From NCBI RefSeq assembly GCF_000024845.1, contig NC_013501.1, positions 2,336,874 through 2,400,873 of the forward strand: DNA of 64,000 nt. Direction: 5' to 3'. Each line of letters begins with the position of its first letter. The first letter of the stretch is position 1. Source of the stretch: Rhodothermus marinus DSM 4252 (lineage in GTDB: Bacteria > Bacteroidota > Rhodothermia > Rhodothermales > Rhodothermaceae). This document shows, piece by piece, positions 52,812 to 56,086 of the stretch. A program made the position numbers and the translations under genes. Below the pieces are notes generated by a model, which was not told the DNA's origin, searched no databases, and saw only the letters and a list, made by a program, of their open reading frames with translations.

Positions 52812-53022
52812 GACCAGAAAGAATCTGAAGCTGTTTTTTACCAGACAGACGACACGCGAAGCTATCGCCATCCTCTTTTTTCTGAGGGGACGCATTTTCC
52901 CCTTGACAAGCGCCCCCGGTTGTTATTTCTTTCCCATCGTCCACGGCGACGTGGTGGCTTCTCCGTCACCTGCCGTTCTCGGTTGACCGGAATCCTTTCA
53001 CCAACCGAAAACGGAGGACGCC
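52812..53022 (+). promoter_or_regulatory. AT-richer intergenic region with candidate promoter
   Basis: After priA comes a 211-base stretch without a gene. TTGACA at 52903-52908 and TATTTC at 52924-52929 (15 apart) could drive the protease gene. A clear Shine-Dalgarno GGAGG at 53013-53017 lies five bases before an ATG at 53023. Base composition here is lower in GC than in the surrounding genes. Confidence 0.4.
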
Positions 53023-55106
53023 ATGCAAGCGACACGTCTTACCCCCCCATGCTCCTACTGGGGCTCTGGCTGGCACTGAGCACGACGCTGCAGGCCCAAC
53101 CGGTGCCACTCTTTGAAGCCGTTTCAGCCTCGCTGCAGGCGCTCGGACCGCAGGCGCAGCAGCGGCAACAGGTATTGCAAAAGCTTCCGATGGTACAGCA
53201 GCTTCAGGTGGTGCGGCTTCCGGCGCAGCTCTGGCGCTATCGTTCGTTTGAGCTGGCGGTGAACGCGGCGGGTCGGCTGGTGCCGGGCCATGGCAAAGGG
53301 CTCGGCACGTTGACGGTGCGGCGTGGAGAACTTTCGGTACTTTCGGAGGAGGCGGTGGCCTGGAACGGACGGATTTACGTGGGTTCGGACACGTCGGAGG
53401 CGGTGGGCGAGGTGTCTTTGGTGGTGTTGCGGACGGGTGCGGTGACGGGCCAGGTGCTGCTGGGCGATGCGGAGTACTGGGTGCGGCCGCTGGGTGGTGG
53501 GCTGCACGCACTGGTGACGATCGACCCGTCGAAGTATCCGAAGGAGCGGCCGACGAGTCCGTACCATGACGGTGGTGGCCCAGGCGAGGCGGGGTTGAAC
53601 GATGCGGCGGAGTCGGTACAGCCCGAGAAAGCCGTAGAGCATGAGACACAGGCGACCTCGATGGGAAGCTGCGCGCAGGAGGAAGCGGCGGCTGCAGGTG
53701 CGGTGGTGCAGAGTCGTTGTAGTCCGGAGGTGGTGCGGGTATTGGTGTTGTACACGCCGGCGGCGGCGCAGGGTCGGGACATTGACGGGATCATTTATGC
53801 GGCCCTGAACGACGCGAACCAGGCCTATCGCAACAGCCAGATCAATAACCTGGAGCTCCGCCTCGTCCACAAACGGTCGTTTAGTTTTACAGTTCAAAGT
53901 ATTCCTGAAGATGACGTTGAGCAATTAGCGAGCGATGCGCAGGCGCAGGCGTTGCGGGACCAGTATCAGGCGGACGTGGTGGTGCTGCTGATCGACTCGA
54001 ATGTAGGACGGTGGGACAGCACATATGGAGTGGCCGGAGTGATCCTGTCCGGCACGACTGGAGAGCAATTGCGCAATATTGGAGAGGCCAATCAGAAGGC
54101 CTATGCAATCGTGCAGGTCGATTACGCCAGTGCGGGACAATACACGCTGGCACACGAGATCGGGCACATTCAGGGAGCGCGGCATGATCCGGAAGACGAC
54201 AACTACTGCTGCCCGGAGGTAGGCGTTCCGTATGGTCGCGGCAATCGCTTTTCCGTGTACAGTTGTGATCCGTTCTGGCCTTTTAAGTGCGGTCGCGATT
54301 ACTATGCCACCATCATGGCCTATACGTGGCGGTGGATGTATCCAGACAGGTATTACCAGCGCATTCGATATTTTTCCAGCCCGAACGTAACCTACCGCGG
54401 CGTAACGATCGGGAGTTCGGATCGGAACAACGCGCGCGTGTTGCGGGAGACGGCCGATGTGGTGGCCGACTTCCGGGATCCGAACGAGCTGCGGGCCACG
54501 TTTTTCTACACGTCAGACAACTTCCCCTACGAGGGCACCTACACGTTCACGGCGCAGCCCTGCGGCGGGCGGGGCACGCTGAGCTACCAGTGGCGCAAGT
54601 GTGCCGATCCGTTCACCTGTGGGCCGGTGCTGGGCACCGGGGCGACGTTCACGACCTATCTGGCGCCGGGGTCGAACTACATTCAGCTAACGGTGCAGAG
54701 CAGCGCGGGGCAGGCGTACACCGCGTTGCGGGAGGTGTACGTGCTGGATTCGAGCTGTGGAGAAGAGATTTTCTGTGCGCAGGCGGTGGGTGGTGATACG
54801 CTGCAGGTGGTGCAGGAGCGGTTGTCGGCGGAGCGATTGCCGGCGGCGCCGGAGCTTGAGGGGTTGTATCCGAACCCGGCGGGTGATCGGGTGGTGGTAC
54901 GGTTCGGGTTGCCGGAGGCGTCGGAGGTGGAGCTTATGGTTTACGACGTGCTGGGTCGGGCGGTGGTGCGTCGGCGGCCGGGTCGCATGGAGGCGGGCTG
55001 GCATCGGGAGGTGCTGATGACAGACGGATGGCCGGCGGGGCGCTACGTGGTGGTGCTGCGGGTTGGCGAACGGACGCTGAGCAAGACGCTGATGCGGATT
55101 CGGTAA
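53023..55106 (+). CDS. Secreted metzincin-like metalloprotease with T9SS sorting domain; start split by a C7 tract
   Basis: The main frame gives 685 residues from the ATG at 53049 (MLLLGLWLALSTTLQAQ signal). The best-supported start, ATG 53023 with GGAGG, is in another frame and would stop after 18 codons. One more C in the C7 tract at 53042-53048 would join them and add MQATRLTPP before the signal. The mature part has a propeptide-like region and the zinc site HEIGHIQGARHD (HExxHxxxxxH, metzincin type). It ends in a T9SS type A domain (LYPNPAGDRVVVRFGLPEAS ... VVVLRVGERTLSKTLMRI). Codon use is rich in GCG, GTG and CGG, unlike its neighbours. Frame status is uncertain: sequencing error, phase variation or decay. 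Confidence 0.83.
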
Positions 55107-55115
55107 GCCGCGGGG

Positions 55116-55137
55116 CCGGGGTCAGACTTGGCCCCGG
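55116..55137 (+). terminator. GC hairpin after the protease gene
   Basis: CCGGGG (55116-55121) and CCCCGG (55132-55137) form a stem ten bases after the stop. No T-run follows, so termination is possible but not certain. Confidence 0.3.
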
Positions 55138-55187
55138 GCCCTGTCGGTTCGGAGCAGGAAAACCGGAACTGAAAGCTGGAGGGCGCG

Positions 55188-55886
55188 ATGCGGTGCTACT
55201 GGTTGGGCTTGCTGGCGCTGGTGGGCTGTGGATTGCTGGGGGCGAAGGAGGAGCGGCGTGAGGCGCCGCTGGAGGTGGAGGCCTACGCCGAGATTACGCT
55301 CAACGGTCAGCCCTGGCGGCCGGACTCGGCCCTTGGCGCTTTGGACTTAATCTTTGACAGTGGCCCCCTTGTTGGCGAACGCTACGAATACCTGGGGCTA
55401 TCCTTTATTTTGCGTGATCCCACGCCAGAGCTTCCGTTCTATGAAGCTGTATTATGGCTCAGCCTTTATGAAAAACCATTAAAGTCTGACACCACTTATT
55501 ACCTGTTCAACTCCAATCCTCACGAACGAGAGCGCGTTGCTAATGGGTATCCGGAAAACTTCTTAGGACGAATGGGAATGTTAAGCGAGAGTGAGGGGGA
55601 TGCCTATTTAGGTGCATTTTGGATTGCGCGGGAGGATTCGTTGCGGAGCTGGGTGCGCTTCAGTCAGATCGACACGGTGCAGACCGAGCCGTTTCTGCTG
55701 GTGTTTTATGAAGGAAGCTTTGAGGTGGTGCTTTCGCCTTTCAGTCGGGATCCGGCCTGGAGTCGGTATCCGAACGAGAAGTTGCATTTTGCGGGGCGGT
55801 TTCGGGTGCCGGCTGTGACGTGGGAGTACCTGCATCAATGCGGAAAAGCACGTAACTGCCTGCGCGTGCGGCTGCGGACGCTGTGA
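55188..55886 (+). CDS. Lipoprotein of unknown function
   Basis: A 232-residue protein with a lipoprotein signal (LLALVGCGLLG, Cys14) and a GGAGG ribosome site a few bases upstream. The mature part is rich in Tyr, Glu, Leu and Trp, likely beta strands (YYLFNSNPHERERV, EPFLLVFYEGSFEVVLSP), with one cysteine pair near the end (HQCGKARNC). I recognise no family. Bases about 55340-55620 are clearly more AT-rich than the rest of the window. It follows the secreted protease in the same direction and shares its odd codon use, so both may have arrived together. Confidence 0.65.
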   Translation: MRCYWLGLLALVGCGLLGAKEERREAPLEVEAYAEITLNGQPWRPDSALGALDLIFDSGPLVGERYEYLGLSFILRDPTPELPFYEAVLWLSLYEKPLKSDTTYYLFNSNPHERERVANGYPENFLGRMGMLSESEGDAYLGAFWIAREDSLRSWVRFSQIDTVQTEPFLLVFYEGSFEVVLSPFSRDPAWSRYPNEKLHFAGRFRVPAVTWEYLHQCGKARNCLRVRLRTL

Positions 55887-56086
55887 CCGATGGCAGAAGC
55901 GGGGTAGCGTGGACCTGGTGTCACGGCGTTATGTTGCCACCGCAGCGCCGCTTTCCGCAGGAAGGCGCTGCAAAACAAGGTGAAAATACTCAATCTCGAT
56001 TGAGGTGCTTTGCAAGGTTGTCGCCCCATCCATTGAGAGTGAATAAAACGGAACCCACCCCCGCCTCGCTTCGTTGAGAAGCGCTC
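55887..56086 (+). other. Intergenic region with hairpins before the SRP RNA
   Basis: No gene is seen. A strong imperfect stem lies at 55942-55971 (GCAGCGCC, later GGCGCTGC), a likely end signal for the lipoprotein gene. A second inverted repeat CTCAAT-CTCG-ATTGAG lies at 55989-56004. The promoter of the SRP RNA should be in the last 50 bases, but no -10/-35 pair stands out. Confidence 0.45.

Follow-up and report, generated by a model that had tools for sequence, protein, structure and literature searches.

In Rhodothermus marinus DSM 4252, a run of seven cytosines separates the start codon of a metzincin protease gene from its long open reading frame (ORF), and the best explanation of this run is probably that it acts as a slipped-strand phase-variation switch. 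Tract-length variation among homologous copies, the out-of-frame state of the gene, its homologous start codon, selection on the ORF and the pairing of the protease with a lipoprotein gene are all directly supported.

The cytosine tract at the start of the protease gene

The gene lies in a stretch of 64,000 nucleotides (the window), in which the start region and the protease ORF comprise the following features:

53013-53017, + strand: Shine-Dalgarno sequence GGAGG
53023..53079, + strand: out-of-frame start codon and 18-codon ORF, the C7 (proposed OFF) state; homologous ATG in tract-less copies
53042..53048, + strand: C7 tract, the proposed slippage site; C6-C9 across eight homologous copies
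53049..55106, + strand: metzincin protease ORF of 685 codons, with signal peptide, N-terminal domain, catalytic domain and type IX secretion (T9SS) tail
54153..54185, + strand: zinc-binding motif HEIGHIQGARH (HExxHxxGxxH), from sequence and alignment, with the Met-turn IMAY after it
54864..55094, + strand: T9SS type A sorting domain (TIGR04183, 29.7 bits, cut-off 23)

The ATG at 53023-53025 sits 5 nt past GGAGG and opens a short ORF, MQATRLTPPCSYWGSGWH, which terminates at TGA 53077-53079 and overlaps the long protease ORF by 31 nt. The original prediction had placed the GGAGG, the ATG, the 18 codons, the stop and the tract exactly where we find them. Its claim that one extra C would join the leader ATG to the protease signal peptide also holds, since insertion of 1 C into C7 yields the fused N-terminus MQATRLTPPMLLLGLWLALSTTLQAQPVPLFE. 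A larger ORF from TTG 52920 is a mechanical extension through the leader and was rejected as a start.

The window contains far fewer C7 runs than expected (2 observed versus about 20 from dinucleotide shuffles), and across the whole 3.39-Mb genome there are 55 tracts of exactly C7 and six longer ones, so that the chance of such a tract in a given one-strand 30-nt stretch is ~3e-4. The C7 at the protease start is therefore not due to chance. The sole other family gene of this genome (L039), whose protein is 88% identical to that of the window, has a C9 at the homologous position, genome 110881-110889, and the genome has just two C9 runs. The two flanks of all 61 tracts were scored for coding frame as a control. 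The majority lie inside one continuous coding frame, and the other tracts that scored as a frame change had one side intergenic or a weak call; among eight frame-change tracts inspected, only one (genome ~1203727) was at all like a frame junction. This G7 run (L142, around position 1501; genome C1:1203727) may join the two frames of a protein with a hydrophobic stretch and is a second candidate switch; the nearest relative, G002, yielded no match to it.

Family comparison across Rhodothermus

The conserved leader upstream of the start codon occurs in 16 copies in six of seven Rhodothermus genomes. A protein scan of GTDB contigs returned zero relatives, and therefore the leader pattern was used as the query instead. 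Among 84,980 species genomes it was found only in four stretches of two Rhodothermus metagenome-assembled genomes (MAGs), apparently two of the Rhodothermus genomes already covered. The protease gene is a member of a small family, specific to the genus, in which leader, start codon, N-terminus and C-run are conserved. The detailed comparison comprised 11 copies, among them L054, an additional paralogue whose leader has diverged. Each species is represented by one genome, and several of the sequences stem from draft or metagenome assemblies.

The tract is present in eight copies, drawn from six genomes. Its length is C7 in the window, C9 in L039, C9 in L040 (from another genome, and the closest 5' relative of the window copy), C8 in L043, C7 in L044, L046 and L049, and C6 in L053. 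None of the eight has the leader ATG in frame with its long ORF, and the frame would be repaired by one more C in four copies and by one less in the other four. The window and L040 differ at 0/60 positions before the tract and at 2/60 after it, yet have C7 and C9, respectively. Thus, among homologous alleles from the species and paralogues compared, tract length varies faster than its flanks. A comparison of several strains had been proposed as a check of the original prediction; run across species and paralogues, it revealed lengths from C6 to C9, including at orthologous positions. The tract-less copies L047, L052 and L054 read in frame from the homologous ATG straight into the signal peptide, which identifies ATG 53023 as the homologous and ancestral start.

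The long ORFs are under purifying selection, with dN/dS values of 0.17-0.41 for all pairs from five genomes (full-length or contig-limited ORFs), even though none of the tract-bearing ones is in frame with the leader ATG. Genes that are never translated drift towards a dN/dS of 1. Selection on the long ORFs is the main argument that the OFF state would be temporary.

Two homologues, L047 and L052, from two genomes, are only 272 residues long: they have lost the whole catalytic domain and kept the N-terminal domain, the T9SS tail and the in-frame start, and are possibly decoys or inhibitors. At the contig end of a MAG (L048, 5784-6262), the end of the leader and the start are tandemly duplicated, with ATGAGACGCACACGTCTTA present twice.

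Upstream of the start codon, and around the module as a whole, the following elements were annotated:

52812..56049, + strand: protease-lipoprotein module between priA and the signal recognition particle (SRP) RNA gene; in three other Rhodothermus genomes the site is empty
52903..52908, + strand: TTGACA, conserved -35-like element of an inferred promoter; CTTGACA in nearly all aligned copies
52941..52954, + strand: inverted repeat CCACG-GCGA-CGTGG, near-invariant in 15 aligned copies
52965..53014, + strand: conserved leader with pairing arms, a family-specific pattern within the genus

A consensus scan found no full sigma-70 promoter. Two arms of the leader, CCGTTCTCGGTTG at 52973-52985 and CAACCGAAAACGG at 53002-53014, can base-pair immediately 5' of the Shine-Dalgarno sequence, the leader fold has a z of -2.5, and a search of the leader against Rfam matched no family. 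The region 52941-53022 is nearly invariant between diverged copies, and its predicted fold pairs the Shine-Dalgarno region in part. The leader may be a regulatory RNA or a protein-binding site new to Rfam.

In G002, only 'CGT' stands between the priA stop and a shared GGAACCC, and in G001 and G003 the SRP RNA follows closely behind priA. In G004 and G005, the downstream, lipoprotein end of the module adjoins the SRP RNA. Because the module is absent in three relatives and present, at least with its end, in two, its distribution indicates gain or loss as a unit.

Proposed phase variation and competing explanations

The arrangement is as expected for a phase-variable gene: the ORF is otherwise intact, and its frame is set by a homopolymer within the 5' coding region. 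In the proposed mechanism, translation would start at ATG 53023 behind GGAGG, and the protease with its full signal peptide (MQATRLTPPMLLLGLWLALSTTLQAQ) would be made only at the right tract length modulo 3, that is, C8 or C5. In the sequenced genome, the C7 of the window and the C9 of the paralogue would place both genes in the OFF state. In the ON state, the protein would pass through Sec and then the T9SS to be released as a metzincin protease, and the lipoprotein encoded downstream probably shields the producing cell from its own protease by binding it. Tract lengths would switch within a population or clone, although possibly slowly, because C6-C7 runs are short. None of the eight tract-bearing copies, a small sample with one genome per species, is in frame; were one third of alleles ON, this would occur by chance in about 4% of cases, and the copies are not fully independent. 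The family may therefore stay OFF most of the time, unless this is an effect of the small sample.

The original prediction had also considered a true but poorly translated start at ATG 53049, which would render the upstream ATG and the tract irrelevant or turn them into an attenuating short ORF. We regard this as unlikely. An ATG does follow the tract directly in five of the eight tract-bearing copies, and the ORF from there still opens with a hydrophobic stretch. However, TTC or ATT replaces this ATG in L043, L044 and L046, so that a start at this position is not a family feature, and L044 nonetheless retains an intact ORF of about 680 codons. The sequence just before 53049, GCGACACGTCTTACCCCCCC, contains nothing like a Shine-Dalgarno sequence, and the tract-less homologues begin at the upstream ATG. 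Moreover, a signal peptide read from 53049 would lack the basic residues (R, RR or K) found at the N-terminus of the others, and the 31-nt overlap is too long for the usual coupling with the short ORF. Programmed ribosomal frameshifting or transcriptional slippage on the C-run, giving a steady low level of protein, could account for out-of-frame ORFs under purifying selection, and CCC-C runs are shift-prone. A programmed site, however, keeps one direction, whereas a -1 shift would be needed in four copies and a +1 shift in the other four, with no single direction fixed at the conserved site; furthermore, tract length varies at the DNA level. Such decoding is accordingly improbable.

It is also improbable that the gene is a pseudogene which an ordinary indel has permanently disrupted. 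Such decay would agree with the out-of-frame state of all eight copies, and the family does contain real pseudogenes, namely L043 with a second frameshift and the clear remnants L041, L042 and L045. The full-length copies, however, are broken only at the tract and in both directions, the catalytic motif is intact, and the dN/dS values speak against decay. A homopolymer sequencing error, likewise raised by the original prediction, is very improbable. C-runs are error-prone on some platforms, but errors in both directions would have had to hit this one site in eight copies, spread over six genomes, and the tract-less copies are in frame. Phase variation, as the original prediction proposed, is instead supported by the C6-C9 lengths at conserved flanks, the homology of the upstream ATG and the purifying selection on the ORF.

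The protease, its partner lipoprotein and related systems

The prediction of a metzincin-like T9SS protease agrees with the domain matches. The ORF matches Reprolysin_5 (E 8e-17, 62.5 bits, cut-off 27), which together with the HExxHxxGxxH motif and the Met-turn assigns it to the metzincin, M12B-like proteases. The C-terminal type A sorting domain, above the TIGR04183 cut-off and just under that of Pfam PF18962 (25.8 versus 27), marks it as putative T9SS cargo; many other proteins of the same genome have similar C-terminal tails. The nearest named catalytic domain is that of Mep72 (NF052434, E 1.5e-32, residues 228-476), but equivalence to Mep72 was rejected, as the 112.9 bits obtained compare with a curated cut-off of 645. 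PDB sequence searches gave no convincing relative of the protease, and structure predictions for the lipoprotein and the protease were poor models (mean pLDDT 44 and 49). Compared with L039, the protease (region 53720-54500) is a mosaic, with 96% identity in the N-terminal domain, 99% in the tail and 40% in the block after the zinc motif; this block is 78% identical to that of L049 from another species. The pattern suggests that the ends underwent gene conversion or that the catalytic block was exchanged.

The partner gene lies directly downstream:

55188..55886, + strand: lipoprotein with lipobox-like LVGC, the proposed cognate inhibitor; adjoins the protease in L039, L040, L044 and L049

The lipoprotein gene is thus found beside the protease in at least four other modules. 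Of 245 genomes of the class, six carry it, each of them Rhodothermus; it has zero Pfam or NCBIfam matches and gave no convincing PDB relative. Intact orphan lipoprotein genes stand beside a leader and protease remnant in L041 and L042, and a partial one in L045, a pattern as expected for orphan immunity genes, if the lipoprotein has such a role. The middle of the lipoprotein is 43 and 53% identical to L039 and 63 and 75% to L049, which is the pattern of the protease. Across five pairs only, protease and lipoprotein co-vary with r = 0.78 (permutation p = 0.033 for one block pair out of 12 tested), which is no more than suggestive of a variable lipoprotein part that changes together with the catalytic domain. 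Because of this co-variation, and because Mep72 is encoded beside BamI, we give about even chances to the lipoprotein being the cognate inhibitor of the protease.

BamI, encoded beside Mep72 of Pseudomonas aeruginosa, binds Mep72 and relieves its toxicity in E. coli (PMC4334185). The Rhodothermus module resembles this pair in that a metzincin is encoded beside a partner, which in the case of BamI is an inhibitor (PMC4334185). Mep72, however, has CBM domains and uses type II secretion, and no tract is described for it (PMC4334185), whereas the Rhodothermus protease bears a T9SS tail. Pairs of the AprA-AprI type likewise combine a secreted metzincin with a co-expressed inhibitor, as in the pair proposed here (PMC4334185); the Rhodothermus lipoprotein, for its part, has no detectable sequence similarity to any solved structure.

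The closest functional parallel to the poly-C protease is NalP, a secreted protease of Neisseria meningitidis with a poly-C of 6-15 that is ON at 7, 10 and 13, as checked by immunoblot (PMC3723659). NalP (and MspA) share with the present case a secreted protease, a frame-setting coding C-run and alleles that differ, in their case between strains (PMC3723659). They differ in that NalP / MspA is an autotransporter of a host-associated pathogen and the Rhodothermus protein a T9SS metzincin of a thermophile. No linked cognate lipoprotein is described for NalP / MspA (PMC3723659), whereas the Rhodothermus protease has a lipoprotein neighbour; and switching is verified for NalP / MspA (PMC3723659), whereas in Rhodothermus it is proposed from sequence comparison. 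The Rhodothermus case would thus join the NalP-type switches, not as a proven member, and would differ from them in phylum, protease, route of secretion and way of life. Our literature search found no paper on phase variation in Rhodothermus and none combining homopolymer phase variation with T9SS.

Speculatively, T9SS proteases of several catalytic specificities that are kept mostly OFF by C-tracts, together with matched lipoprotein inhibitors and orphan inhibitors, could form a phase-variable effector-immunity system acting between neighbouring bacteria, a proposal that we consider possible but doubtful. The switch would explain the misplaced start in annotations that begin such proteins at the post-tract ATG, and the poly-C protease offers a simple system for measuring slippage at high temperature. 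Most work on homopolymer switches at start sites concerns pathogens, in which they are usually explained by immune evasion. For a conserved switch in a free-living thermophile of another phylum, some other reason would be needed, such as competition or the price of secreting a dangerous protease.
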